This document shows, piece after piece, positions 29,902 through 49,800 of a stretch of 52,094 bases of DNA (the first letter of the stretch is position 1; the number at the start of each line of letters is the position of its first letter). The notes beneath the pieces were generated by a model, which made no database searches, had not been told where the DNA came from, and was given only the letters and a program-made list of their open reading frames with translations. The DNA comes from Candidatus Omnitrophota bacterium. Lineage in GTDB: Bacteria; Omnitrophota; Gorgyraeia; Aquiviventales; Aquiviventaceae. Both the position numbers and the translations under genes were made by a program. The stretch lies in the NCBI GenBank assembly GCA_023247255.1, contig JAHFGV010000018.1:1-52094 (forward strand), read 5' to 3'.

Positions 29902-30485
29902 TCTACCTGTGGGGCGTTGTTGTAGCGGTCCATGGCCACACGAATGCCGTCCTTGACCCAGGTCTCACAGGCGTCCGCCGCCCGTTCAATAACCTGTCGC
30001 ACCCGTGCCTGTTCCGAATCCTGAAACGGTTCCAGAACGAAACCGACTAGATCGTGAGGAAGATTTTCTGTCCCAATTCCCACGCGCAGCCGGGCCACCT
30101 GTTGGGTTTGCAAAGCGTCCAAACAGTCTTGCATCCCGTGATGACCCCCGCTGCTGCCTTGGGCGCGCAATCGAAGTCTTCCTAAAGGGAGATTGACGTC
30201 GTCATACACCAAAAGCAGATCTTGCGGATTCGCTTGTACAACATGCAAGATTTTACCAGATTCATTCATCATGACGAGAGGAATTAATAAGCGAACGGCT
30301 CCCTTCGCTTCTTGGCTGTAATCTCCATAGCTGCCCACTCGCTGATGCGTCTGGGAATCGAGGATACTGCAGGCTATGGAAAGGCCGCGGCGTCTTGCCA
30401 GCTCTTCAATGACGCGCACGCCGATATTGTGTCGTGTGTCTTGATAGCGCTGGCCCGGATTGCCCAATCCCAAGATGGTCTTCAC
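29898..30485 (-). CDS. pth: Peptidyl-tRNA hydrolase
   Basis: MKTILGLGNPGQRYQDTRHNIGVRVIEELA, GSSGGHHGMQDCLDAL. Confidence 0.96.
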   Translation of the reverse strand: MKTILGLGNPGQRYQDTRHNIGVRVIEELARRRGLSIACSILDSQTHQRVGSYGDYSQEAKGAVRLLIPLVMMNESGKILHVVQANPQDLLLVYDDVNLPLGRLRLRAQGSSGGHHGMQDCLDALQTQQVARLRVGIGTENLPHDLVGFVLEPFQDSEQARVRQVIERAADACETWVKDGIRVAMDRYNNAPQVE

Positions 30486-31219
30486 TTCTCCTTCTTGGTT
30501 TCCTTAGAAGATTCCTTAGCTTCTGTCGCAGCGGCCTTGGCCCCTTCAGCAGGAGCGCCTGGTGCTTCTTCTTTCTTCTCACGAATCACCTCAGGCTCCG
30601 TCACCGCTGGTGCTACTTCCTCGACCTTCTCTTGCTTCGGTTGTTGTACCGAGGCGATGACGCCCGTGGCATCCGTGGTGATCTTCGCATGGTAAACAGC
30701 CGGAAGATCCGACACATGAAGCGTCTGGCCGATGTTCAGGGCGCTGATATCCACCTCGACATGCGCAGGGATTTCTGTGGGAAGACACTCCACTTCCACT
30801 TCACGCAAGAATTGCTCCAGAATGCCTCCCTCCTGCTTGACTCCTACGGCCTCTCCCTTGAGAACCACGGGAACTTTCACCCGAATGCGCTCTGTCAGGG
30901 TAATGGCCTGGAAGTCAACGTGCAGAATGTGGCCATCGATAGGATCGTACTGGAGGGCTTTAACCAAAGCAGGCGTTTTCAATGACGTGTCCCCTTGAAT
31001 ATCCAAATGAACCAAGGGATGCTCACCCCCTTTGGCGTGGAGCAGATTCATCAAGGCTTTATGCTCAACGCGAATCGGTATGGGTTTTGTAGCCTTTCCA
31101 TAAACGATACACGGAATGACTCCTTCCTCGCGCAAGCGTTTGGTCGAGCGCGTTCCAACCGTTGAGCGCCTCTGGGCCATCAACTCAAGTTGTCCTTGTC
31201 TCTGCTTCGTCACCATCAT
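30482..31219 (-). CDS. rplY: 50S ribosomal protein L25/general stress protein Ctc
   Basis: RLREEGVIPCIVYGKATKPIPIRVEHKAL, VHLDIQGDTSLKTPALVKALQYDPIDGHILHVDFQAI. Confidence 0.94.
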   Translation of the reverse strand: MMVTKQRQGQLELMAQRRSTVGTRSTKRLREEGVIPCIVYGKATKPIPIRVEHKALMNLLHAKGGEHPLVHLDIQGDTSLKTPALVKALQYDPIDGHILHVDFQAITLTERIRVKVPVVLKGEAVGVKQEGGILEQFLREVEVECLPTEIPAHVEVDISALNIGQTLHVSDLPAVYHAKITTDATGVIASVQQPKQEKVEEVAPAVTEPEVIREKKEEAPGAPAEGAKAAATEAKESSKETKKEK

Positions 31220-31554
31220 CCTAATCCGTCGTAGCGATAGGTGGCCTCTATGTGCTGTGTGCTATCTGCCATGTGCTGAATCTTAATGAGCTGATTCTCA
31301 ACGTCATACGTGTACTGGGTCTGCGCGTTGTCGAGTTTGCGCGTTCGTAAAATCAAATTCCCATTCGAATCGTAAGCATACGTGAACGCATCATCCTCAA
31401 GCAAACGGTTGGCGTCGTCATAAGCGTAGCTCGTCGAAAGATGCGACGTCAGCCGATTGCCGATGGAGTCGTAGCTGAAACGATTCTGAGTGCTTTCCCA
31501 CATATCCGTATTGATTACATTACTCATTCTATTTGAATAGGTTGCGTAATACAT
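31216..31554 (-). pseudogene. Rhs core fragment D (YD repeats), truncated at the rplY start codon
   Basis: FSYDSIGNRLTSHLSTSYAYDDANRLLEDDAFTYAYDSNGNLI...YTYDVENQLIKIQHMADSTQHIEATYRYDGLG*, TGA overlapping the rplY ATGATG. Confidence 0.85.
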
Positions 31555-31557
31555 CTA

Positions 31558-31803
31558 CTAAGCCTTGGCGTATTGTGCTAGGGGAACTCGAATCTGAGTC
31601 TTGAACAGCTTTTTATGCTTCAAGAGATCCTCAATGTTCTTGAGCACCTGGGCTTCATAGTAGCGCTCTCCACACTGCTCGCACACACCCGTAGGAACCT
31701 TGTCAACAAGAGCAATCAGCCGATTTCCCCACCAACAGGGTTTCTGAACACGCCTCATCGTCACGCGACCGCCACAATACGAACAGTCATCAAACGCATG
31801 CAT
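31558..31803 (-). CDS. YgiT-type zinc finger protein (putative antitoxin)
   Basis: CSYCGGRVTMRRV...VPTGVCEQCGERYYEAQVLKNIEDLLK, directly downstream of DUF4258. Confidence 0.78.
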   Translation of the reverse strand: MHAFDDCSYCGGRVTMRRVQKPCWWGNRLIALVDKVPTGVCEQCGERYYEAQVLKNIEDLLKHKKLFKTQIRVPLAQYAKA

Positions 31804-31808
31804 CGATC

Positions 31809-32114
31809 TCACCCCCTTGTCTTTGGATCTATCCATCTTGGAGGAGTAGGAATATAGACCGTGATGATACGAAGTGTCTTTGAAGGCGTTTGACCACAAA
31901 CGAGATGAATAGGATAACCCTCCCGCCCATATCCAAGCATCAAACAGCTTGGACCCCGAGGATCATCCCTGTACGTTTCGAGAATCTCTGCGTTGAGCAT
32001 CGCCTGTTCGATTTCCTCAATCGAGATCTGATCTGCCTGCCGTTCCTCATCTGCATGAGATGTCAACTCATAGTCCCCTTTGCGAACCTGGGCCCTTATC
32101 CAGACGATATCCAT
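31809..32114 (-). CDS. DUF4258 domain protein (putative RelE/MqsR-like toxin)
   Basis: 101 aa; YELTSHADEERQADQISIEEIEQAMLNAEILETYRDDPRGPSCLMLGYGREGYPIHLVCGQTPSKTLRIITVYIP. Confidence 0.78.
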   Translation of the reverse strand: MDIVWIRAQVRKGDYELTSHADEERQADQISIEEIEQAMLNAEILETYRDDPRGPSCLMLGYGREGYPIHLVCGQTPSKTLRIITVYIPTPPRWIDPKTRG

Positions 32115-32645
32115 CTATTGACAGTCTATAGGCTGTTTCCAGCAGCCACTTGTGTCATACAAGGCTACGACGTCCTCGTTGTCGTAAACGTATCGAGTGA
32201 TCACACCGTTGACGCTCTTCTCGATTCTTCGTCCTAATCCATCGTAGCGATAGGTGGTCTCTATGTGCTGTGTGCTATCTGCTATGTGCTGGACTCGAAT
32301 GAGCTGGTTCTCACCATCGTAGCTGTACACCGACGAGAGACAAGGGGCAGGGGGCGAGGGGCAAGCAAGCGGACGTTTCTCAATTAGGTTTCCATTGGCG
32401 TCGTAAGCATACGTGAACGCATCATCCTCAAGCAGACGATTGGCGTCGTCATAAGCGTAGCTCGTCGAAAGATGCGAGCTGAGCCGATTGCCCACTGAGT
32501 CGTAGCTGTAGGTCTCGGGAACAAGGCCGCTCAGCGAAGGATGCGTGGCGGCAATGAGCCGGCTAAGCGCGTCGTAGGCAAAGCTGTGAGTCCCAAACCG
32601 CTCGGTAAGATCGTCTACAATTGAAAAATGATAGTGTCTCTGCAT
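32115..32645 (-). pseudogene. Rhs core fragment C (displaced YD-repeat segment)
   Basis: MQRHYHFSIVDDLTERFGTHSFAYDALSRLIAATHPSLSGLVPE...YVYDNEDVVALYDTSGCWKQPIDCQ*, paralogous to the main Rhs protein, ends abutting DUF4258. Confidence 0.85.
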
Positions 32646-32691
32646 GTTACGACCTTAAGAGCAATCGCTGTATCCTGTCACCGTTATTTCC
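32600..32691 (-). repeat. Shared Rhs-cassette 5' junction, copy in fragment C
   Basis: Near-identical to 34468-34560 (1-nt indel plus a few substitutions), ending ...gcaatcgctgtatcctgtcaccgttatttcc; absent from the main Rhs gene. Confidence 0.8.
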
Positions 32692-33049
32692 CTGTCCAAT
32701 TGTCGATTAAGCGATCTATGCCTCTAGAGAAACGCACCATCAGCATCTGATGAGTGGAAATATGCAACACGATAAGTCCAAGAGATATGATTCCAAGTAG
32801 TAACCTACTATTTCTTCTGTTGTTTTTGGCAGTAACAATACAACTCGTTAAAAGAATAAACGTGAGGGAAAAATAGGCTATGCAGCTCACCCAAAGTGCC
32901 CACATAGCGTTGGTCAATGCTAAGGCTAATGAAAGAGGCGCGCTGATGATGTAAAGGATCCATTCCTGATTCAGGAGCAATGCCATCTTTAAAACAAGAC
33001 CTCCAAAAACTGCTCCAGCGAGCATGGACATCGCTAACCATGCTTTCAT
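32684..33049 (-). CDS. Small membrane protein, about 4 TM helices (candidate immunity protein)
   Basis: 121 aa hydrophobic; directly downstream of Rhs tip B. Confidence 0.55.
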   Translation of the reverse strand: MKAWLAMSMLAGAVFGGLVLKMALLLNQEWILYIISAPLSLALALTNAMWALWVSCIAYFSLTFILLTSCIVTAKNNRRNSRLLLGIISLGLIVLHISTHQMLMVRFSRGIDRLIDNWTGK

Positions 33050-33108
33050 ATGCTCATTGCTCCCTGCATCTGCTTGACTGGCTGTATTGGATTTAAAAGC
33101 TACTGAGT

Positions 33109-34200
33109 TTATGGGACTGTTTGTTTGCGACCTTCTACAGCTGCGTCATATCCCTGCAGCAAACGGATTCTCATGCTAGCATCGTCTAATTCTTGCTGTA
33201 ATTTTTGAGCTCGTTTACTTCCAGGTTTTATCTTCATTCTTTGAGTCAATATCTCTTCTAGCTTCTCATCGAATTTCGAACGAAGTTCAGCCCTGCAACT
33301 ATTTGCGATCTCCTTTGCCTGCTCGTTAGTAATGTTCTCATTACCAGCTACGGCTGTTTCGAGCGGGTTCAAGACGCTATCGATCTCTTCTGCAATGATG
33401 TCCAATTCTTCACTTGAAAACCGTTCTCCAAATCCTTCCTGGACTAATTTCTCCTTTATCTTTGATTTCACCATGAATAGACCTAAGGGGTCAATATAAG
33501 TTAGGGGATTATTTTGAACATAAGGGTATCTATTCAAGCTCTTGGGATTCCACTTTACCCCAGCAATCGGATCCTCTTGTATGAATCGACCTGTACGAGG
33601 GTTGTAGTACCTCGCGCGATAATAATAGAGGCCGGTTTCAGGATCGTACTCCCTGCCGGTGAAGAAGTAGAGGTTGCCATAGCCAGACGAGGGAAGGACG
33701 GTGCCATTGGGGTCGGTGATCGTCGGGTTACCGAAAGAATCGTAGACGTAGCGCTCGCGCAGGACGATGGCGCGTTGAAAGCCGGAGGTCTCAGAAAGAA
33801 GGCTCGTGATCGAGCCTAAGGCGTCTGTGTTGAGCACGCGAGCAGGCTCAGGAAAACCTGCAGCGTCCGCCGCGTTGCAGTCGTCGTTGGTGTCCTGGAT
33901 GAAACCAATCGGATCGTCGATCCCTGGACCATGCACAATCGTCTGCTTCCAGCAGCCGGCTTGATCGTAGAGAGCAACTATATCCTCGCTGTCGTAGACG
34001 TAGCGCAGAGAGTGTGGCAAAGTGGCTGAGTGGCTGAGTGGCAAAACACCTTTCTCACTCCGACGTCCAAGACCGTCATAGCTAAGAGCAGTGACCAGTG
34101 ACTCGTGACTCGTGGTCAGTGAGAGCGAACGAATGGAAACTACTGCGGGATTAACTACCAGTAGCCCACTCAGCAGAACATTCACCGTAGAGTAAGTCAT
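33109..34200 (-). CDS. Rhs core with alternative C-terminal tip (cassette B)
   Basis: YDGLGRRSEKG...YFFTGREYDPETGLYYYRARYYNPRTGRFIQEDPIAG...YIDPLGL then unique helical tip FMVKSKIKEKLVQEGF...GRKQTVP. Confidence 0.85.
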   Translation of the reverse strand: MTYSTVNVLLSGLLVVNPAVVSIRSLSLTTSHESLVTALSYDGLGRRSEKGVLPLSHSATLPHSLRYVYDSEDIVALYDQAGCWKQTIVHGPGIDDPIGFIQDTNDDCNAADAAGFPEPARVLNTDALGSITSLLSETSGFQRAIVLRERYVYDSFGNPTITDPNGTVLPSSGYGNLYFFTGREYDPETGLYYYRARYYNPRTGRFIQEDPIAGVKWNPKSLNRYPYVQNNPLTYIDPLGLFMVKSKIKEKLVQEGFGERFSSEELDIIAEEIDSVLNPLETAVAGNENITNEQAKEIANSCRAELRSKFDEKLEEILTQRMKIKPGSKRAQKLQQELDDASMRIRLLQGYDAAVEGRKQTVP

Positions 34201-34300
34201 CTTTTTCCGTCACAAAATAGAACCGTCTCCTTTAGTATCGTTAGTATCGTGCCTTTGCATCTTGTCTCAAAAATAAGAACCGTCCCTCTTTTTACTCAAG
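34201..34300 (-). repeat. REP-like doublet (GGGACGGTTCTTATTTT / GGAGACGGTTCTATTTTGTGACG) interrupting cassette B
   Basis: Minus strand AAAAAGAGGGACGGTTCTTATTTTTGAGAC ... GGAGACGGTTCTATTTTGTGACGG; also TACTAACGATACTAA repeat between. Confidence 0.65.
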
Positions 34301-34513
34301 CAAACGATTGGCGTCGTCATAAGCGTAGCTCGTCGAAAGATGCGAGGACAAGCGATTGCCCACTGAGCCGTAGCTGTAGGTCTCGGGAACAAGGCCGCTG
34401 AGCGAAGGATGCGTGGCGGCAATGAGCCGGCTAAGCGCGTCGTAGGCAAAGCTGTGAGTCCCAAACCGCTCGGTAAGATCGTCTACGATTGAAAAATGAT
34501 AGTGTCTCTGCAT
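34292..34513 (-). pseudogene. Rhs core fragment (5' part of cassette B), interrupted
   Basis: MQRHYHFSIVDDLTERFGTHSFAYDALSRLIAATHPSLSGLVPETYSYGSVGNRLSSHLSTSYAYDDANRLLE*. Confidence 0.85.
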
Positions 34514-34560
34514 GTTACCACTCTTAAGAGCAATCGCTGTATCCTGTCACCGTTATTTCC
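34468..34560 (-). repeat. Shared Rhs-cassette 5' junction, copy in cassette B
   Basis: Pairs with 32600-32691. Confidence 0.8.
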
Positions 34561-34587
34561 GGTACCTGGTACGCGGTACTTGGTACC
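34561..34587. repeat. Heptad-phased array at cassette boundary
   Basis: GGTACCT|GGTACGC|GGTACTT|GGTACC. Confidence 0.75.
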
Positions 34588-34668
34588 AAGGCGCTGCTAC
34601 CTATCAACTCAAAACTGACGGAACACTAGTCATCGCCTCTAATCTAATCACGTCCCCCAAATTCCCCA

Positions 34669-35283
34669 TCAGTAAAACGTGCCCTGCAACTGGGTGAGTT
34701 TCTCAAGTTGCTTCGCCTTGAGGTCCAGCTTGCATAGGTGATATGCAACGTGCTTGGTGAGTTTAACCGTCCCCACTCCTGGCAGGTCAGTGGACATGTC
34801 CGCGGCCTTGGGAAACCCAATGACCGCATAGACACCACGTCCATCCTCCAAAGCCAAGACAAGCGAGCTAACCCAAACTTGGCCTATTCCCACGATGGCA
34901 GCAAGCTGCGTTCCATTCAACACGCCTTGTACTTTACCGTCTCGGAGATCAGCACGATACACGCCAACCCAATCGCCTCCCCAGAGTCCTCCTAGTGACG
35001 GCCTTCCTTTCTTTTTGACCATACCGGCGTTCAACTTTCTATATCGTATGACATTGAAGAACAGAAATGGAGCTGATGTAGCCACCACTGGCGAATCGAA
35101 TGAGATGTTAGCTTGCGGCCTTCCAAGTTGATGGTATATACCTTCGTTGTTTCTCCGCCAATACAATCGAGTAACTGGTGAGGTTTCACCGCGAGGCCGA
35201 ACTGAAACGGCCACCGCTTTTGAGACCGGATTAAAGAGCAGCCTTTTCACCGTGCTTCGCTTAGGAAAACCAAAATCACTCAT
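34669..35283 (-). CDS. Hypothetical protein directly downstream of the main Rhs gene (candidate immunity or effector partner)
   Basis: 204 aa, starts 22 bp after the Rhs stop; no family recognised. Confidence 0.6.
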   Translation of the reverse strand: MSDFGFPKRSTVKRLLFNPVSKAVAVSVRPRGETSPVTRLYWRRNNEGIYHQLGRPQANISFDSPVVATSAPFLFFNVIRYRKLNAGMVKKKGRPSLGGLWGGDWVGVYRADLRDGKVQGVLNGTQLAAIVGIGQVWVSSLVLALEDGRGVYAVIGFPKAADMSTDLPGVGTVKLTKHVAYHLCKLDLKAKQLEKLTQLQGTFY

Positions 35284-35304
35284 CTTTAGCCCTCGTCTCT
35301 GTCA

Positions 35305-38300
35305 TCAGCGTCGGTAGATGATCGTCGGTGGACATGTTCCGCCCAGCCGCTTCCGATTCAGGTTTACAAACCCTCCATCACTGCATTGGTATTGGCAGTT
35401 ATCTTCGCTTTGATCGACAAGGTTACAGACGACTTCTCCTCCTTCTGCCTCATCGGACTCCAGGGGGCAAACTGTTGTGCCCTTCTTGTCTGTCAATGGA
35501 TTCGGAAGTGGAATGTCGACGCCTGGAAGCGGTGGTAAGCTGCTTCCAAATCCAAGGCTCGTTACCCCACACATTAGACATCTACCAAACGGCTGCTCCC
35601 CAAAAGGATCCGTAAAGTTGACGGGATTATTCCGCGCGTAGGGATAGAGGTTTATGTTAAAGACCGGATCCTCCTGCATGAATCGGCCGGTGAGAGGATC
35701 TCGGTAGCGATGACGGTTGTAATACAACCCGCTTTCAAAATCGTACTCCCTACCGGTGAAGAAATAGAGGTTGCCATAGCCAGACGAGGGAAGGACGGTG
35801 CCATTGGGGTCGGTGATCGTCAGGTTACCGAAAGAATCGTAGACGTAGCGCTCACGAAGAACGATGGCGCGTTGGAAGCCGACGGTCTCAGAAAGAAGGC
35901 TCGTGATCGAGCCTAAGGCGTCTGTGTTGAGCACGCGAGCAGGCTCAGGAAAACCTGCAGCGTCCGTCGCGTTGCAGTTGGCGTTGGTGTCCTGGATGAA
36001 ACCAATCGGATCGTCGATCCCTGGACCATGCACAATCGTCTGCTTCCAGCAGCCGGCTTGATCGTAGAGAGCGACGACGTCCTCGTTGTCGTAAACGTAG
36101 CGAGTGATCACACCGTTGACGGCCTTCTCGATTCTTCGTCCTAACCCGTCGTAGCGATAGGTGGTCTCTATGTGCTGTGTGCTATCTGCCATGTGCTGAA
36201 TCTTAATGAGCTGGTTCTCAACGTCGTAGCTGTACACCGTTGACGAGAGACAAGGGGCGGGGGGCGAGGGGCAAGCAAGCGGACGTTTCTCAATCAGGTT
36301 TCCATTGGCGTCGTAAGCATACGTGAACGAATCATCCTCAAGCAGACGATTGGCGTCGTCATAACCATAGCTCGTCGAAAGATGCGAGGACAAGCGATTG
36401 CCCACCGAGTCGTAGCTGAATTGCTCAGGGACAAGGCCGCTGAGCGAAGGATGCGCGGCGGCAATGAGCCGGCTGAGGGAATCATAAGCGTAGCTGTGAA
36501 GGCCAAAGCGATCCGTGAGGTTGACTCGGTTTCCTCTTAAATCATAGCTGTAGCTGAAGGTGTCAATCAAAGTGCTGCCCAGTAGGGTTTGGAGGTGGAT
36601 GAGTTGGCTGGCAGAATCGTAGCCGTAGGTGGTCTCAGCCCCTGCACTTTTGCGGATCAAGCGGCTCAAAGCATCGTATTCGAAACGAGCTCCTACACCG
36701 TTTCGGTCGCTGACTCCAATCACGCGATTGAGAACATCATAGGTATAGGCAGTCTGAATGTTGACAGGACCGAGAAGCAGGGTGCGGTTGCCGTTGGGAT
36801 CGTAAGAGTATTGAAGCTCGGTAACAGGCTGGGCGAGAGAAGGATTGCTGGAATCACCACTCGTTGCCTTGATGAGCCTTCCTACCGAGTCATAGCCAAA
36901 GCGGAGTCTGCTGTCATTGTCCTGCACTAAAGTGAGATTTCCCAAGGCGTCGTAGGTATAGCTGAGGGTATCGGTGAGAGCTGCCGATGAATCGCTAAGG
37001 CGCTTCTGAATGAGCTGATCGGCAGAGTCGTAGAGAAAGTTAATCGTCTGGCCTTTGGGATCGAGGATTCTGACGAGGTTTCGGGAGAGATCGTAGAAGT
37101 ATTGCTTGGTTCTCGCTATCTGCTGGCTGCTGATGAGTTGGTTGAGGCTGTCGTAAGCAAACTGATGCGACGAGGGGCAAGGGGCGGGGGGCGGGGGGCA
37201 TGGAGGGGGACGGACTTCGATGAGATTGCCGGCAGGATCAAAAGCGTAGCGAGTCACATTGCCTTGTGCATCAGTGACGGAAGTGAGACGGTTGAGGGAG
37301 TCGTAGGTAAATTGAGTGGTTGTGCCGAAAGCATCCCGTGAGCTTGCGACGTTTCCAGTGGAGTCGTAGCTGAAACTCGTGCTGCGATTCAATGAGTCGG
37401 TGCTGGAGAGTAGATTGCCCGTGAGTGAATCGTAGCTGAACTGCGTTAGGCTGCCGAGGGCATTCATCGAGGATACTAACAGCCCACGGCTGTCGTAGCG
37501 AAACTGACTCGCGTTTCCTAATGCGTCCGTGATCGTCAGGGGGTTTCCCTGGCTGTCATGGTCGATCGTGGTAACACAGCCATTCGGGCAAACACTGTCT
37601 CTTCGAGCATCAACAATCTTCGTGAGCTGGCTGAACTGCGGCTCGTACTGGAAGCGATATTCCCGCTGCTGAAAGAAGGATGGCATCGAGGAAATAGTGA
37701 CGGTCTCCCGGCTCGAAGAGAGGTTTCCGAGACCATCATAGCCCAGAAAAACCTCGCTCCCATCAGGCCTTGTGATCTTCGTGGGAGAGCCGTTGACGTC
37801 GCGCTGAATGGTGCTCGTGCGGCCGAGAGAATCGACGATCTTCGTCGGGGCTCCGTAAGGATCAGTCAATAACCGAGTGAGGTTTCCACGGCCATCTTGA
37901 AAGAGAGCGAGCGGAATGGGCAGTGCGAAAGAGGGGTTACTGGGTGTGCCTAGCCCTTCGGGGAGCGTGTTGATGAGGCCTTGAACCTCAGAAGGAAGGA
38001 AATCGCGAGTCTCACGCTCTGAGGTGATCTGACCAGTCAAGGGACTCAGAATGTCTCTCGCGGGGGAGAGGACCTTGTCGATCCTTCCCCAAGAGTCGTA
38101 AACGTAGTCGGTGGTGAAGCCGCGCTCATCCGTCTTTGAGACGAGCCGATGCTCGGGGTCGTAGCTGAAGTGCGCCGATGAGGAGCATGGGGCGAGGGGC
38201 GAGGAGCATGGGGGTGGAAGAATCTCAATGAGATTTCCATCAGAGTCGATGGTAAACTGCGTTGCGCGATTCGCAGAGTCTGTAATGGATGCGAGCTTGC

Positions 38301-41300
38301 CTGTCGTGGAGTCGTAGCTAAGATCGAAACGAACCCCACCGGGGTATTCGACTCGCACGAGACGATCCTGGGAGTCGTAGACGTATCGAGTCTCGTTTCC
38401 AGATCGATCCAGAGTCTTCGTGTGAAAGCCTCTCGCGTCAAAGTGCACTCCCGTCCCATCGCTTAGGCGGCGAGTCCAGGTACCGTCCGGATGCTTGCGC
38501 AGAACTGAGAAGTCTCCCGGCAAGCCGCTGAAGATACGGTCGGAATCTCCAGCGCGACTGTCGAATTCTGCCACGGCAATCCCAAATGGTTGACTTCCAA
38601 CCGTCAGACGAAGAAACGGCTGGAACGTCCCATCGCCGTTGCCCAGGAAAACAAAGAAGTCTTGTCCTGCGCCTGAGGCGGCCAGATCGGGATGCCCGTC
38701 TTGGTTGAAATCGGCCACAGTCATATCGCCAGCCACGAATGCTCCAAGTGTCTTGCGCGGAAGAAATGTCCCATCCCCGGCTCCAAAGAATAGAGAGATT
38801 ACCTGGGTCGCTTGGTCGCTCACTGCCACATCCGTCAGACCATCTTCATTGAAGTCGCTCAGCGCCAAGACCGAATTCGATGTCGCGCCAGCCGGATAAT
38901 CGGTGGGTCCCTGAAACGTCCCATCGCCGTTGCCCAGAAAAACAGCAATCCGACCTTGGTTATTCCTGACCATCACCACATCCAGCCGACCATCTCGATT
39001 CAAATCCCTCAGGGCCACCGATCGGGGCTGCATCCCAACGGCGAATGTCTGTTGGGACCCAAACGTGCCATCCCCATGCCCTAATAGAATGGAAAGACTA
39101 TCCCCGGTGATACCAAACGCGTTGAGCTCCCCGCGATTGGCCACCACCAGGTCGAGATAGCCGTCCTGATTGACGTCCCCAACCGCCGCTGACTCAGGCA
39201 GTCGGCCAACCACAACACGACGCTGGCTCTGGAATGTCCCATCCCCGTTGCCAAGCAGGACGGAGACGTCGTTGGAGGTCTGGTTGACCACGACCAGGTC
39301 GATCTGCCCATCTCGATTGACGTCGCCCTCGACGATAAAGATCGGGCCACCCCCCACCTCGAATCGCTGCGGTGGATCAAACGTGCCCCCACGGCCGAGT
39401 AGGATCGCTACCTTCCCTTCAATCAGCACAACGGCCATATCCTGAAACCCATCCTGATTGAAGTCCGCCGCAGTCAGCCAATACGGCACCGAGGAGCCTG
39501 TAGGCGTGGCTAGACTAATTCTCTGCTGAGGCTGGAACGTCCCGTCGCCGTGGCCGGTGAGTAGAGAGACATCGCTCGAGCTGAAATTCGCCACAGCTAT
39601 ATCCAGCATTGGGCCAGCCCGCAAGACGCTAGCGGATCCATCACCGTCTGTCACAAGCACGGTGCCATCGGGTTGGGGGAAGATATGCTCTAGGGTCTTG
39701 AGGTTCCAGCCGGCACCAAACGCGCAAGCACGCTCGTTCACCACGATGGCGCGCCCAGCGATGGAGCGCGTCAGCGGACGTAAATCGGGAGTGGGAATAC
39801 CGCTCGTGCCAAACGTGGTTTGATAGTTGTTCGACAGCTCGATGGTATAAGCATAGGCGCCAGTGGGTACCCACTCGCCACGAGCGTTACGCGCATCCCA
39901 AAGAAACGCCTGGCGCGTCTGGCCAGCCTTGCCGAGAAAGTGAGCCTCAAGCCGTTGGCCTTCGATCTGAAGCATCGTTGAAGTCGTCACCGGCACCAGA
40001 GTGCCAGGATCACCTGGAATGCTGGCAGTGTTGAGCTGGTAATCGGTTCCCACCACGACCGAGGGGTTAGCCCTTAGTGAACGGTAGAGGAACTCTGGAG
40101 CGTGTGATTGGCCAAGGCTGCGTAGGTTTGGCAGCCTATGTGTAATCGAGAGCTCACCGGAGTGCAGGCACACGGATGAGTTACCCGTCACCTGACATTC
40201 CTTGGCGGAATCTATCACCTCAGAAGTGGTCTCTGTGACATCTTCCCAGTCAGGGCTCTTGGACTGTGCTGGAAGCTTTGCGCCCACTCGACTGCAGTAC
40301 CAGCAGAAAAACCGAAGAATCCTAAACTCAACCCACTCTCCATCAGCACTGACTGTCCCAGTCCCAGCATCTAACCATACTTGTGCCGTCTCATCCCATA
40401 AAGTGAGAATCACAGAGAGCCCGGCAGGAAGATGCTTGGTATTGCGATGCTTGAAAGAAACAGGCTGATTGAAGGTCGTAAACCTAGGCTCGAAGTAAAC
40501 CGCCTCGATATGAGCCATGTCGGAAGGGACAGGTCCGGGAAGCTGATGATCTTCATGCAAAGGCGTGATCCGAACCTGAAGATCCAAAGGGGAAGCGCCC
40601 GCAGGAAAGTCGAGCTGAAAGTCCCCGGAGGAATCTGTCGCCTTCCCACCAGAGGCTTGAGTAATCAAAGTCGTCTGCAAATCTAACGGAGTGAGAAAAG
40701 CATCCGCCACTGCCACGTCCCTTCCCGCAAGCACCGAAACAGGCCGTTGAACCGACGTGTAGCCACTCTTTGCGATCTCAACTACATATGAGCCACCGCT
40801 GGGTGTGGAAAGCTGAAAACGTCCGTCGCTGCTGCTGGATTGAACGCTCGTCGTTCCACGAAGGGTTATGGAAGCGCCGGATAAGGGCTGGCTCGTCGAA
40901 GCATCGAACACCTGCCCGTGAATAAAACCGGAATCGGGATTGACCGGCGGCTCGATCAGCGTCTGCACCGTGAAACTAACCGATTCACTCAGGGCGTTTC
41001 CCGCTTGATCGGATAAACTGAGAATGATTGTGTGGAGGCCATCAACAAGCGCTGAAGAAACGATGAATATCATGGAGCTTTCCGTAATCAGACTCTGAGC
41101 GCTTACGTCAGTGCCATCGAGACTCAACGATACCGAGGAAACAGCAACACCACTGAGGGAATCGCTGAAGGATGCAGAGATCGTAGGATGAGCGCTGGTA
41201 ACAATCGAGCCCTGTGAAGGTGAAAGTTCGGTAATGGCTGGAGCATGGGTGTCAACGTTCACCGTGACGTCGGTGCTGGATGAATTTCCGGCTCGATCCA

Positions 41301-42213
41301 TCGCTGTGCCTGAAACAGTCTGATTCAAGCCTTCTTGCTCTACGACCACAGGACTCGGACAGCTTACTACCCCGCTTAAATGGTCTGTACAACTGAAGCT
41401 GACGGTTAGGGGACTATTATTCCAGCCAAAAGAATTGGGGGAGGGATCAAGCTGAGTCGTGATCGCGGGAGGGGTGCGGTCGACGGTGAAGGAAACAACA
41501 CCACTCGATCCTTGAGCCGCTAAATCCGCACCCTCTGCACTGAGGCTGTGGAAACCCTCGGTGAGGGTTAGAGTCCCTCGGAGAATCTGCGATAGGCTGG
41601 CTGTGGCGGGAGGATCGAATGAGGCTAATGCAGAGACGCCATCTAACGTAATGCTCAGACTGCTCGGATCGAGCCCCGATATGTCATCCGTAAGCTGGAG
41701 TGAGGCTGTAACGGTGTCTGTGTTGAAAAACGCTCCCTCAGCCGGGCTTAACCAAGTGAGAATCGGGGGATTCGAGTCTTCTCCAATAATCTCAACGGTT
41801 AGCTGACCCCCTGGCTTGCTGCGTAGCTCGGTCACTATCGTGTTGGAGCTCTGAAGATTGACAGGTGCCTCCAGAAAGCTGACGCTCTGACTAAACTGAT
41901 TGGGCTTAAGAACTTCAACACCGTTGAGGCTGAGCGTCGAGCTTGAGACCTTCTCGACACTTGTGTCTTTGAGGCTTCCGTTGACGGCTCTGAGCTTCCA
42001 GCTCGTTGCGGGATCGAGAACAGAAAAACTCTCGCTCACACTCTGCGGACTGGAAGCCTCCCGAACATAAGCCCTCTTAAACACCGTGAATTCAGCCGCA
42101 AAACCGGGGGGAACGCACTGAAGAGATACAAGGCAGGCCGACAGTAGAACGGACCAGAGAGAGTTAAGCCATCCCCCTACCCCATGTCCCTGCTTCCTTG
42201 ACCTGCGTTCCAT
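35305..42213 (-). CDS. Giant Sec-exported Rhs/YD-repeat protein with Ig-like, carboxypeptidase-regulatory-like and FG-GAP/VCBS repeats
   Basis: Signal peptide after M at 42213 (SD GAGGAAG), [21 protein letters not shown], repeated LGNGDGTFQ...[11 protein letters not shown], many YDxxGN repeats, Rhs core [34 protein letters not shown], variable Cys-rich tip. Confidence 0.93.
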   Translation of the reverse strand: [2302 protein letters not shown]

Positions 42214-42238
42214 CAGATACTTCCTCGTTACCCTCTCA

Positions 42239-43228
42239 TCATCCAGGAATGCCGTCAAACAATACACTCAGAGACTGTTCGTAGTGAATTCGGGAAATCG
42301 CCTCGCTGAGCAACGGGGCGACAGATAACACTTTGATTTTCGGATGCGGATACCTCACGGGAATGGTGTCGCTGACAAACAACTCCCGCAAAGGGGCTTG
42401 CTCAATCCGCTTAAGCGCAGGCTCGGACAGCACCGGGTGCGTCACGCAGGCATAACATTCAATGGCACCGGCGCGCTTAAGGGCCCGCGCGGCTTCCACC
42501 AGGGAACTGCCCGTCGTGATCAGATCATCGACGAGCAAGGAGGTCTTTCCATCGACTTCCCCCAGAATGTGCATGACCTCCGTTGCCTCCGGGCCGTCCC
42601 GTCGCTTGTCCACAATCGCAAGCCCGGCGCCGAGCCGTTTCGCATAGGCCCGTGCCATCTTGATGCCGCCGACATCCGGTGAGACGACCACAAGCGGCCT
42701 CAAACGTTTGCTTCGAATGGTTTGTTCAAAAACGTTGATCGCATAAAGATGATCCAAGGGAATGTCGAAGAAGCCTTGGATCTGCCCCGCATGGAGATCC
42801 ATGGTCAGCACACGATTGGCTCCCGCCGTGGTAATCAGGTTGGCGACCAGCTTAGCGGTAATCGGAACGCGGGGCTGATCTTTGCGATCCTGTCTGGCGT
42901 ATCCGAAATAAGGAATCACCGCAGTGATCCGTCGGGCGGAGGAACGTCTCAGGGCATCGATCATGATCAACAGCTCCATGAGATTTTCATTGACCGGAGG
43001 GCAAGTCGGCTGCACCACAAACACATCTTTGCCCCGCACGTTCTCATTGATCTTGACCCTGATTTCCCCCTCGCTAAACCGACTGACCAGTGAATCCACC
43101 AACCGAACCTTGAGATGGCGACAGATGTCTGTGGCCAGAGACGGATGCGCATTGCCGCTGACAATGGCGATTTCCGAATCCAACGCTTTTCTACGGGATG
43201 TCCGCTGTCGCGGGGACGTCTGTGCCAT
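42239..43228 (-). CDS. prs: Ribose-phosphate pyrophosphokinase
   Basis: VVQPTCPPVNENLMELLIMIDALRRSSARRITAVIPYFGYARQDRKDQPR; start trimmed to MAQTSPRQ at 43228. Confidence 0.96.
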   Translation of the reverse strand: MAQTSPRQRTSRRKALDSEIAIVSGNAHPSLATDICRHLKVRLVDSLVSRFSEGEIRVKINENVRGKDVFVVQPTCPPVNENLMELLIMIDALRRSSARRITAVIPYFGYARQDRKDQPRVPITAKLVANLITTAGANRVLTMDLHAGQIQGFFDIPLDHLYAINVFEQTIRSKRLRPLVVVSPDVGGIKMARAYAKRLGAGLAIVDKRRDGPEATEVMHILGEVDGKTSLLVDDLITTGSSLVEAARALKRAGAIECYACVTHPVLSEPALKRIEQAPLRELFVSDTIPVRYPHPKIKVLSVAPLLSEAISRIHYEQSLSVLFDGIPG

Positions 43229-43232
43229 AATC

Positions 43233-44738
43233 TCAACGACGACGTGCGGTCGTTTTGGAAGCAATCAGGCGTTTAGAAAGGCGCGCCTTCACCGATTTTG
43301 CCATCCGCTGGGTGGATGATCGCCGAACAGAAATTGGGTTTCGATCTGCGGATCGTTTCGTTTTGGCGCTGTCGGTCTTGGCTGAGGCCGAGGCGGCACC
43401 CGCAGCCTTCGGTTCCTTGACTTTCTTGACTGATGCAAGCGTCTCTTCCGATGCCTTGAGGCCATCCATGAGCCGTGCGGGCACGCCGACCACAATGCTC
43501 CGAGGAGGAACGTCATGGGTCTTTGGAATCACGCTACCGGCTCCGGTAATGGCTCCGGGTCCTACCTTCACCGGTGCAATCAGCACTGTGTCACATCCGA
43601 TGAAAGCACCCTTGCCGATGTGCGTCGGATGTTTTTGCTGTCCATCATAGTTGGCGGTCATCGTCCCTGCGCCGATGTTGACTGAATCCTCCACCACAGC
43701 ATCACCCAGATAGCTCACATGGTTGATCCGCACCTCGGAGCCAATCTTCGCGCGAACCAGCTCTACGAAATTACCGATCCGCGTATCACTGCCAACCGTT
43801 ACCCCTTTACGGAGTCGAGCAAACGGCCCGATGGAACAACGCTTGCCAATAGACACTCCGGTTTCGATCACGGTATAGGGATGGACCACCGTATCCGCAC
43901 CGATGGTTACTCCATGGTCGATGAAAGTACTGTGGACATCCTCGATGGTCACGCCGTTATGGAGGTGGGAATCGACGATACGCTGACGAATCACCCCGAT
44001 GGCGCGTGCCAATTCGGCTCGGGTGTTGATGCCGAGCGCTTCCGTGGCTTCTTCCACCCGAGTGGATAGGATCTTGGAGTGCTCCTGACGACTCATCTGA
44101 GCCACCGCGTGGGTCAGATACAATTCCTTCGTCGATGCGGTCGTTTTCACCTCTGCAAGCGCATCCAGCAGCGCTTGCGTCTTCACAATTAAAGGGCCCA
44201 CGTTAATCTCGCGAATCGTGCGTTGGGGTGCGTGGAGCTCCGATTCTTCCATGATGCCGCTGATCACACCTTGCTCATTGCGGATAATCCTGCCATAGCC
44301 CGCCGGATCGGCCAGATGAGCCGTAAGCAGCGTACAAGTCGCGTTTGCCTTGCGGTGGGCCTCAATCAACCGTTGAATCGTAGCCCGTCTGACCAGAGGA
44401 ACATCGGCATAAAGAATCAACAAATCCCCGACAGTAGTTTCTAACGCCCGCTTGGCCATCAACACCGCATCGCCGGTTCCCAGACGCTTGGGCTGAATGA
44501 CCGCCTTGGCTTCCTTGGGCAAGTGCCCTTTGACCACATCCGATCCATGTCCAATAACTACGATGGGGCGCGTGACCCCGGCTGCAGCTACCAAATCTAA
44601 CATATAAGCAATCATCGGTCGGCCGCAGATGGAATGAAGAACCTTGGAGACCTCGGACTTCATCCGTGTGCCTTCACCCGCCGCTAAGATAATTGCTTGG
44701 AGTGTGGTTATGCTCGTTTTCCCCATGTTCCTCGCCAT
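43233..44738 (-). CDS. glmU: Bifunctional N-acetylglucosamine-1-phosphate uridyltransferase/acetyltransferase with long basic C-terminal tail
   Basis: LQAIILAAGEGTRMKSEVSKVLHSICGRPMIAYML; LbH repeats (NIGAGTMTANYDGQQKHPTHIGKGAFIGCDT); Lys/Arg/Ser-rich tail. Confidence 0.94.
   Translation of the reverse strand: MARNMGKTSITTLQAIILAAGEGTRMKSEVSKVLHSICGRPMIAYMLDLVAAAGVTRPIVVIGHGSDVVKGHLPKEAKAVIQPKRLGTGDAVLMAKRALETTVGDLLILYADVPLVRRATIQRLIEAHRKANATCTLLTAHLADPAGYGRIIRNEQGVISGIMEESELHAPQRTIREINVGPLIVKTQALLDALAEVKTTASTKELYLTHAVAQMSRQEHSKILSTRVEEATEALGINTRAELARAIGVIRQRIVDSHLHNGVTIEDVHSTFIDHGVTIGADTVVHPYTVIETGVSIGKRCSIGPFARLRKGVTVGSDTRIGNFVELVRAKIGSEVRINHVSYLGDAVVEDSVNIGAGTMTANYDGQQKHPTHIGKGAFIGCDTVLIAPVKVGPGAITGAGSVIPKTHDVPPRSIVVGVPARLMDGLKASEETLASVKKVKEPKAAGAASASAKTDSAKTKRSADRNPISVRRSSTQRMAKSVKARLSKRLIASKTTARRR
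44675..44707 (-). repeat. 33-bp direct repeat, copy within glmU 5' coding region
   Basis: cacccgccgctaagataattgcttggagtgtgg identical to 45197-45229. Confidence 0.92.
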
Positions 44739-45691: not shown

Positions 45692-45733
45692 TGAAAGTCG
45701 GCGCTCCGTTCGATTCCTTGCTCAAGCACATAC

Positions 45734-45803
45734 TGGGGAGCCAGGGATCGAACCTGGATACTCAGATCCAAAATCTGATGGCTTACCATTAGCCGACTCC
45801 CCA
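45734..45803 (-). tRNA. tRNA-Gln (anticodon TTG)
   Basis: TGGGGAGTCGGCTAATGGTAAGCCATCAGATTTTGGATCTGAGTATCCAGGTTCGATCCCTGGCTCCCCA folds into a cloverleaf; anticodon loop TTTTGGA. Confidence 0.95.
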
Positions 45804-45818
45804 ATCACACACAGCCCA

Positions 45819-46859: not shown

Positions 46860-49800
46860 TCAGACCTGCGAACGCACCAGGCGTTGAGCCTTGAATTGTT
46901 TGTCGATACTATGGAGGAGGCGACCGGCTTCACCTGAGCGTGGAGGGATGATAAGGATGTCTGGGCCCTCTTGTATCGCCGGGACATCATTTTCTACCGT
47001 GTGCTTAAGCCCTGGACCCTCAAGCTCGGCAGATGTTTGTTTCGATTCACTCAAGACTGTCAGTGTGCGCATGACCGCGGTGGAATAATCCGCAACGGCC
47101 GGCTCATCGACTCGTATCGGTGGCTGCACCCAGACATGCCTTGTGTCTTCGAGCAGCGTATGAAATATCCACTGCTCGTCTGCGTGGCTGGCAAGAGTGA
47201 CGGTGTTCTCATGACTCAGCCCTTGAAGCGGTTTGACTTCAGCATCCTGTCCTGTCCGTGTTCGGTAAGCCTGCCGGTATTTCTTTAGGTTGGCAGTCAC
47301 GGTTTGTAAGATCTGCTTTCGGAGCGCCTGGGTGAGGCTACTGCGTATAACGCCATCTGTTTCTTGCACCACGGGCATTCCATCAAACGTCCCATCGAAG
47401 AGTTTTTCAGCATCGATCGGGAGTCGCTCAAACAACTCCGCCTGTGACAGCGTTGGATCCGAATGAACGTAGAGGATATTCACCAGCTTATCGGTTTTTG
47501 AGGCGGTAATCTGGTCTCGAAGAGTCACCAACGTCGCAAGCCCGGTCACAGTCTTGATGGCCTCGGTTCCCACCAGATACACCAAAGGACGTTTGCCTCC
47601 CTCAGTAGCTTTCTCCAACAACCCTGCTCCACTGCCTGCCAGTTCTCTTAGAATCGGATCGTGCTGGAATACAGAAAAGACCAGTTGTTCTGGGACAGTT
47701 TTTTCTGCCTCGGCGGGTTGGGTCGATAGACCCTGGCTACCGCGAGGCTCGCCCGCATGAAGGGGATCGCGAGTCTCAGGGATGCTGGCATCTGCGCCGT
47801 CTGCTTGTTGCGGCTCTGAAGGAGCCTTCTGTCGAGTCGCAACAGACGTTCCACCAGCGTCTGCGGAAGAAGGGGGAACCGTTTGAGCAAAAGCCTTCAG
47901 GGCATCGACGTGACGGTAGCCGGCTAGAAGCACGATGTGTTGCACCTGCGGATACTGTTGCTCGATGATTTGTTTGAGGGCGTCATGCGTCAGCCGATCC
48001 GCCACTCGAACCGAGTATCCAGCGATCTGCTGCGCTTTACGCATCTGTTCGTCATGCGAAAGGGAGTTAAACTGTTGAAAGGCTGCTAAAAGCTCCCCTT
48101 GTGTCAGCGTCCCCCACGTACCTGCGATGCGGCGAGCGGCTTCCCGAACATTCCCATGAGTCAACTGGTAAGCGGTCGATCCCACGTAATAACCAGCAAC
48201 ATCCTCCAATGAAAACTCTCCAGTACCTTTTCCTTCCTGAATCACTTCACGGATCACGTTCCAATGGCTTGGATTAGAAATAGGATTCACCACAGGAATA
48301 TTCAACGTGCCCGCAAGCCTTACGGCTGTCTGTCCTGCCTCACCCGCGAATTCCTGCTGCATGGCAAGGCCGGCCCCCTCAACAGCAAAGAGCACGTGAG
48401 CTGCCCGGGCTTGTTCCATGAATGACGCTCCGCCTAACTCCATACGGCTGATCTGCTGAAGCAAGTTCAACGCATAAGGATCTTGATGAATCTCTGCAAT
48501 GCCCATGACACGATGACCAAGGAAATCAAAGGTCTCAAGATGCGAGCGGCCGATGTGGCTCGGATCTAAAGAGCCTGGATGAACCAGGCGCGCTTGCTGA
48601 AAAAGTCCTTCAATCAGCGGAGGCAAGCTGACAGGTACTTCCTTTTCTGGCCTTGGTGCAGCAATCGGATGAGATGCAATGAAGCTGGCAACCGAACCTG
48701 TGTGGGAGCTACCAGCGATGATGAGAATCTTCTGCTTCTGGGCATTTGCATGAAGAACATTTTCCAGGGCTTGCCGTGTAAACCGATTAGAAACCGCCGT
48801 CAGGAAATTCATCCAGAATTGGCGCAACCGCAACGCCCCTTGAGGATCGCGGCGTTCCAATTCAAGGGCGTCTTGCGCTGCTTGTCGAAGCGTCTGTTCG
48901 TCAACGTTCCAGCGACGAGCGGTCTGCTTGATTAAAAATTCGCTTTGTTCATCAGTAGGATCTCGATGGGTCTTTTCTTGAGTGTACGCCTGATGATCCA
49001 AAAAGGCTGCTTGGAATGCATGCTGGGTATCAAAGCCTTGCCCTGCTGCATACTCAAGAACCCGTCGATCATGAACACCAAGGATTGGGCTTACCACAGG
49101 AATCCCCCATAGGCGCCCCAGCTCCTCAGCAAAGGAGGCTTCCGCAGGCATCCCTGTTTCACCCACAAGGCCAGAAAGATCTTCCGTGATCCGACGGTCC
49201 TCCTCAGAAGGCATCTCAACGATGAAGAGCCACTCCTCAGGATGCTCACGCACAAAAGGAGCGATCGAATCGTGCAGCACCCTCAAGGCCCTCTCAGAGC
49301 GATGCTCCAGACTCAACCCATGAACCTCAACGCCTGGCAATGGGAATTGTCCATAGCCTGCACGCGCCCCCGGGACAAGGACAGATGCCCTGAGCAGACG
49401 GACAAACAAAGCGTCAATGGGATCATTCGCTGTGGGATCAGCAGGAAGCTCTAAAGGACCGACCAACAGGCCCGGCTGATTCAGGAATTGCTGGATGAGA
49501 TCTCGATGAGGACCTGCGAAGAAACTCAGGTTTTCAAGATCCCTGGCTGTGCGCTCATCGGTATCGGCCTCAGAACCAAGGCCGGGCAACTCGTGAGCGC
49601 CCCACTGGTGGGCAAATGCAGTCAGTAAGAGACTCCGGACGATGGCGCGAGCCTGTGGGGAATATTTTCCAAACTGGGTATCCGCATCGGTGAAATTCCG
49701 TCGGTGGAGGATCACGCCATCGGCTGTGTGATTGCCTGCCAGGTATTCGTATTCGTCAGCGAGAAGAATCGTAAGCGGCTTGTGTTGGAGATTCTGGATG

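Follow-up and report, generated by a model that had tools for sequence, protein, structure and literature searches.

An Rhs locus with a partly decayed orphan array inserted between prs and rplY in an Omnitrophota genome

Introduction

Rhs polymorphic toxins are a known kind of antibacterial weapon, and Rhs arrays are usually regarded as accessory islands under their own control. Orphan toxin/immunity modules are known from both Rhs and CDI loci (Poole et al. 2011, PMC3150448; Koskiniemi et al. 2014, PMC3967940), and the CDI orphan region of E. coli EC93 has been reported to be co-transcribed from upstream (PMC3150448). In the T6SS clusters of Vibrio cholerae, immunity-gene arrays are formed by effector displacement (Kirchberger et al. 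2017, PMC5361080). We found no description of an Rhs locus within a ribosomal operon, which is not proof of absence, and only one passing mention of Rhs genes in Omnitrophota. The locus described here is ordinary in kind, an Rhs gene with orphan modules, and unusual in place.

Results

Genomic setting and empty sites

The window, i.e., the entire 52,094-nucleotide stretch of DNA that was analysed, corresponds to the whole of contig C35 of a 2.18-Mb genome that is 90.7% complete and comes from an uncultured bacterium. Named relatives recovered through rplY are for the most part Candidatus Omnitrophota MAGs, which makes an Omnitrophota origin most likely. The minus-strand gene order is ispE, tRNA-Gln, glmU, prs, an 11-kb interval, rplY, pth and rpsF, followed by ssb, rpsR, rplI and dnaB. 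Domain matches (Pfam/NCBIfam) identified ispE, glmU, prs, rplY, pth and dnaB, while ssb, rpsR and rplI are given as listed in the initial annotation. All flanking genes confirmed in this way (Prs, L25/TL5, Pth, GlmU, IspE, DnaB) lie on the minus strand, and the tRNA-Gln gene (45732-45804) has glmU on one side and ispE on the other. ORF and DNA reading, along with the Pfam and NCBIfam matches, confirmed the annotated co-directional arrangement, with an Rhs block between prs and rplY. The annotation erred in assigning only Rhs-related genes to the interval, which also holds a DUF4258 gene, a YgiT-type zinc-finger gene and two non-Rhs ORFs. A 1707-aa ORF upstream of ispE (window 46860-51983) has no significant Pfam/NCBIfam match.

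The flanks and junctions comprise the following features:

42239..43264, minus strand: prs, left flank, intact (Pfam Pribosyltran_N and Pribosyl_synth; C-terminus LFDGIPG, as in relatives)
42214..42238, minus strand: 25-nt spacer with GAGGAAG, like the rplY leader of relatives (sequence, relatives' spacers, joined flanks)
42210..42215, minus strand: TGATGG, left copy of a 6-bp direct repeat at the insert ends (shuffle p 0.12; may be chance)
31213..31218, minus strand: TGATGG, right copy, at which rhs identity stops exactly (sequence comparison)
30482..31219, minus strand: rplY (L25/TL5), right flank, intact (PF01386, PF14693)

In the same family, prs and rplY adjoin in all assessable genomes (25/25), 24 of which were compared as loci while one (G015) is adjacent by coordinates; a 26th, with rplY broken at contig ends, was left out. 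In these 24 genomes, no more than 136 nt separate the prs stop from the aligned part of rplY. In the rest of the class, among the matches listed, the two genes are adjacent in every genome that has both placed on one contig, where adjacency means one read-through match or matches less than 400 bp apart and covers only part of 147 genomes. Among assessable genomes, a distance of about 11 kb is found only in the genome of the window. Because prs-rplY adjacency holds in all assessable relatives, the 11-kb gap needs an insertion. Empty sites, which the initial annotation had suggested seeking in relatives, therefore exist, and a lack of adjacency in relatives is ruled out. As judged by sequence comparison, insertion of the Rhs locus into a conserved co-directional operon core, the flanks of which are intact, is confirmed. 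The empty sites and the Rhs domains also support the view that a polymorphic-toxin-like locus sits within a translation/nucleotide operon.

Junctions and ends of the insert

The prs stop codon (TGA, 42241-42239) follows the C-terminus usual in the family (...LFDGIPG). The ATG of rhs, at 42213, lies 25 nt past this stop, rather than the 26 bp first annotated, and is preceded by GAGGAAG. At the other end, the TGA of the last Rhs fragment (F4) overlaps the rplY ATG (31219-31217) by 4 nt (ATGA), in agreement with the earlier observation that this fragment ends on the rplY start codon. When the flanks are joined in silico, 25-30 nt lie between the two genes and include a normal Shine-Dalgarno sequence, as in relatives. 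The 42214..42238 spacer would hence be the ancestral rplY ribosome-binding site, now located before rhs.

It is extremely improbable that the contig is a chimera in which an Rhs block from elsewhere was wrongly joined between prs and rplY. A chimera would need two false joins that happen to bring the ancestral neighbours back together exactly and in the right orientation; the insert ends share only 6 bp, and the 16-mers spanning each junction are unique within the window and the own-genome loci compared. Moreover, the same Rhs type is present as fossils in the genome. Such an error is suggested by the difficulty of Rhs repeats for short-read assembly, the longest exact repeat within the array being 91 bp, and by the many contigs of relatives that end within Rhs genes. 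Misassembly was rejected on the logic of the empty sites and the unique junction k-mers; assembly errors inside the repeat array are possible.

Alternatively, an element with defined ends, either transposon-like or integrative, could have brought in the insert and made a target-site duplication. The 6-bp direct repeat flanking the insert, with rhs identity ending exactly at its right copy, would fit such an element, as would two Rhs copies in the genome whose right ends match within 15 nt. However, the left ends of these copies are offset by about 100 bp, the insert ends carry no terminal inverted repeats above those of shuffled sequences, and no transposase or integrase domain was found in the ORFs scanned (Pfam, NCBIfam). 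The 6-bp match, moreover, sits at two start codons and is within chance (shuffle p about 0.12), and on account of its length and p value a target-site duplication is not claimed. We regard this origin as very unlikely.

The main rhs gene

The first gene of the insert and its tip are as follows:

35305..42213, minus strand: main rhs, 2302 aa (Pfam; NCBIfam TIGR03696 and TIGR01643; solved Rhs and teneurin-like relatives)
35305..35595, minus strand: CT1 tip, 96 aa, Cys-rich, after DPFGE (follows the Rhs core end at residue 2223)

Residues are numbered from a GTG-start ORF of 2,320 aa; the protein has 2,302 aa from the likelier ATG. Its start, judged by eye, resembles a signal peptide (LLSACLVSLQCVPPGFAA). 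The protein features Ig-like and carboxypeptidase-regulatory domains, seven FG-GAP stretches, 12 RHS stretches and an Rhs core that ends at residue 2223. Membership in the Rhs/YD family is evidenced by PF05593 (250 bits, 12 stretches) and by TIGR03696, which scores above cut-off both in the main rhs and in the downstream fragment F2. The two proteins carry a DPFGE (main rhs) or a DPLGL (F2) motif, each followed by an unrelated tip, and neither CT1 nor CT2, the tip of F2, has relatives among the Rhs loci compared.

The GC content (0.552) and GC3 (0.60) of rhs are host-like, while the values of the tip and of the immunity-like ORFs are lower (0.42-0.51). Three F2/F3 segments compared with the main rhs gave dN/dS values of 0.18-0.26, and the divergence of the Rhs paralogues is of the purifying type. 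The T6SS sheath gene VipB/TssC (PF05943) is absent from the 90.7% complete genome, while an E. coli control gave a match. The lack of a PF05943 match speaks against delivery of the protein as a T6SS effector.

The downstream array

Between rhs and rplY, the following features were identified:

34669..35283, minus strand: 204-aa ORF, putative immunity gene (by position only), 21 nt after rhs (no Pfam, NCBIfam or PDB match)
34292..34513, minus strand: F1, decayed Rhs fragment ending in TAA within the core (80% aa identity to residues 1916-1980, internal stop; repeats)
33109..34200, minus strand: F2, orphan Rhs fragment that has a complete core and a tip of its own (TIGR03696; 88% nt identity to the main rhs over 300 nt)
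33109-33477, minus strand: CT2, tip of F2, after DPLGL (follows the F2 core)
32684..33049, minus strand: 121-aa hydrophobic ORF, putative CT2 immunity gene (by position only; sub-threshold Pfam match only; GC 0.42)
32115..32645, minus strand: F3, truncated Rhs fragment with a 5' leader common with F1 (89% aa identity to residues 1916-2078)
31809..32114, minus strand: DUF4258 protein, probably the toxin in a TA-like pair of type II (PF14076, 77.7 bits)
31558..31803, minus strand: YgiT-type zinc-finger protein, probable antitoxin (TIGR03831 above cut-off)
31216..31554, minus strand: F4, last of the Rhs fragments, truncated at residue 2044 (overlaps rplY by ATGA)

The fragments F1-F4 show 71-89% aa identity to the main core (tblastn), and F2, with a tip of its own, has the make-up of an orphan module. 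DNA segments shared by F2-F4 and the main rhs are mostly 78-93% identical; F1 is more decayed. Small ORFs follow both tips, CT1 and CT2. Neither the tips nor the neighbouring small ORFs contain a recognised toxin or immunity domain (Pfam, NCBIfam and, for the 204-aa ORF, a PDB search), and the structure prediction for the 204-aa ORF is uninformative (mean pLDDT 33.8).

The DUF4258 and YgiT genes are 5 nt apart, an adjacency consistent with a type II toxin-antitoxin arrangement. The pair (window 31558-32114) is located between two Rhs fragments, two genes upstream of rplY. The DUF4258 protein has no significant match among PDB sequences, and we found nothing in the literature naming DUF4258 and YgiT with toxin-antitoxin. 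In the 11-kb interval, a main rhs is followed by an orphan array that has partly decayed, an arrangement documented before. Given the partial decay, present function of the array as a whole is doubtful.

Rhs copies elsewhere in the genome and in relatives

Two further copies, both decayed, mark this Rhs family as resident in the genome. One is a fossil (L092, G000:C27, 8232-9738, minus strand) that is 88% identical at the nucleotide level over 478 bp and then continues as scattered pieces. It sits between thiE/tRNA-Gly and a LysM/M23 gene. In relatives, thiE, tRNA-Gly and the LysM gene are close neighbours, so that this site, empty there, marks a second insertion. At this site, the 3' end of tRNA-Gly and about 70 bp downstream are repeated once, between the tRNA and the rhs remnant. 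The other remnant (L152, G000:C16, contig 42578-42969) starts at the stop codon of a gene for an NAD-dependent epimerase-like protein and retains part of the N-terminal domain along with a stretch resembling a signal peptide. Other, shorter Rhs-core genes are found in the same genome (L095 and L125 on G000:C17, L094 on G000:C31); those on C17 encode about 430 aa and lie beside small lipoprotein-like ORFs.

The N-terminal domain of rhs occurs in 6/246 genomes of the class. In all nine loci of the same Rhs type, three in the genome of the window and one each in G010, G022, G027, G038, G049 and G107, rhs lies on the strand of the upstream gene; for G022, the assignment rests on a similar start and core instead of the N-terminal search. 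In three relatives, the upstream gene is roughly 57-94 bp from rhs. In G022, a c-di-GMP-I-GGC riboswitch (L099, G022:C170, 5879-5954; 72.4 bits) precedes the Rhs gene, making control of Rhs by c-di-GMP possible, and in G010 a 226-bp spacer lies ahead of rhs. Since this riboswitch and this spacer are present, control of its own before rhs exists in some relatives.

By sequence comparison, the window and the thiE-LysM site are the only cases in which a conserved gene run is shown to be interrupted. That this Rhs type interrupts operons as a general rule was not upheld: in G049, rhs follows pgpA, but the gene after pgpA is convergent or variable in most class members examined, so that no interruption emerges there. 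In G038, the gene after the pilQ/gspD-like gene differs among relatives and paralogues. In G001, a genome of a related genus (L105, G001:C29, 1-3669), a different Rhs type and a 165-aa ORF lie just upstream of ispE-glmU-prs-rplY, in the same direction; the prs operon drew another Rhs locus there.

Expression of the locus

Promoter-like sites in the region number 7, vs 10.9 expected from shuffled sequence, and terminator-like sites 17, vs 15.3 expected. The counts give no sign of separate units and are compatible with read-through, of which they are no proof.

The locus may be a neutral passenger that landed in the spacer, is decaying there in the manner of the other two copies and plays no selected role, the downstream genes being served by an internal promoter without meaningful co-expression. 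F1, F3 and F4 are truncated or contain stops, and both other copies are fossils, as this account would predict. The main rhs, however, retains an intact frame of 2302 codons with host-like codon usage and a dN/dS near 0.2 against its paralogues, and the ORFs from DUF4258 to rplY are tightly packed, with ATGA-like overlaps. We therefore consider a purely neutral history rather unlikely.

The reading that we favour, and hold to be likely, is that the Rhs locus stands behind prs, encodes a Sec-exported protein and probably uses the ribosome-binding site that once served rplY, with the remaining operon genes left downstream. A resident Rhs locus, comprising the main rhs, a putative immunity gene, a series of displaced orphan tips and the captured DUF4258/YgiT pair, would have been copied or recombined into the short prs-rplY spacer. 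Lacking a promoter of its own, rhs would be transcribed from the prs operon and probably translated from the former rplY ribosome-binding site. Translation of rplY would be coupled, through the ATGA overlap, to the last Rhs fragment, and the downstream ribosomal and replication genes would be expressed by read-through or from internal promoters. The exported protein would act on neighbouring cells through its C-terminal tip, and the orphan modules may serve as a reserve of tips and immunity. Both co-transcription of prs, rhs and rplY and toxin activity of the locus are inferred from the DNA. The reading is favoured by the empty sites, the unique junction 16-mers, the normal leader obtained on joining the flanks, the other Rhs copies in the genome, the dN/dS values, host-like composition and domains of rhs, the counts of promoter- and terminator-like sites and the strand shared with the upstream gene in all nine loci. 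Telling against it are the control elements ahead of rhs in G022 and G010, the partial decay of the array and the lack of a recognised toxin or immunity domain.

A broader proposal is that a promoterless class of Omnitrophota Rhs genes spreads by inserting right after the stops of expressed core genes, whose signals for transcription and translation it captures. In the window, it would have locked a toxin/immunity/TA array into a ribosomal-protein operon, such that essential genes downstream would suffer if the array were lost or transcription stopped within it (addiction by operon embedding). We deem this proposal unlikely.

Discussion

Ribosomal and replication genes are now downstream of toxin genes in this genome. 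A comparatively proven empty site, together with copies of the same family, offers a direct case in which to study how toxin arrays spread inside a chromosome. The prs-rplY locus likewise lends itself to the questions of how expression of a toxin array may become tied to growth genes and of how an essential operon tolerates an 11-kb insertion.

Solved structures provide one point of comparison. A bacterial teneurin-like YD-shell protein (PDB 9pt5, 9ifo) and Rhs proteins (7q97, 8qja) are similar in YD-shell sequence to the window rhs, and the teneurin-like chain aligns with residues 1256-2205. The similarity is confined to the shell and leaves the N-terminal half of the protein and the tip uncovered.

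As in the V. cholerae arrays, old modules are kept downstream of the current effector gene, in line with successive replacement. In contrast to those arrays, another secretion system is involved, the fragments keep pieces of the Rhs core, and ribosomal genes directly follow the array.

The closest likeness in organization is to the Rhs/CDI orphan loci, in which a full-length main gene is followed by core-keeping fragments with a DPxGL-type boundary, unrelated tips and small downstream ORFs, and in which, as here, repeats make recombination between main gene and orphans possible. The window locus departs from them in that its tips and immunity-like ORFs match nothing known and a DUF4258/YgiT pair is embedded among its modules. 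Its Rhs protein, moreover, has a Sec signal-like start together with Ig-like and FG-GAP domains, in a genome without a T6SS sheath gene. Finally, unlike the described orphan loci, the whole array lies inside a housekeeping operon.
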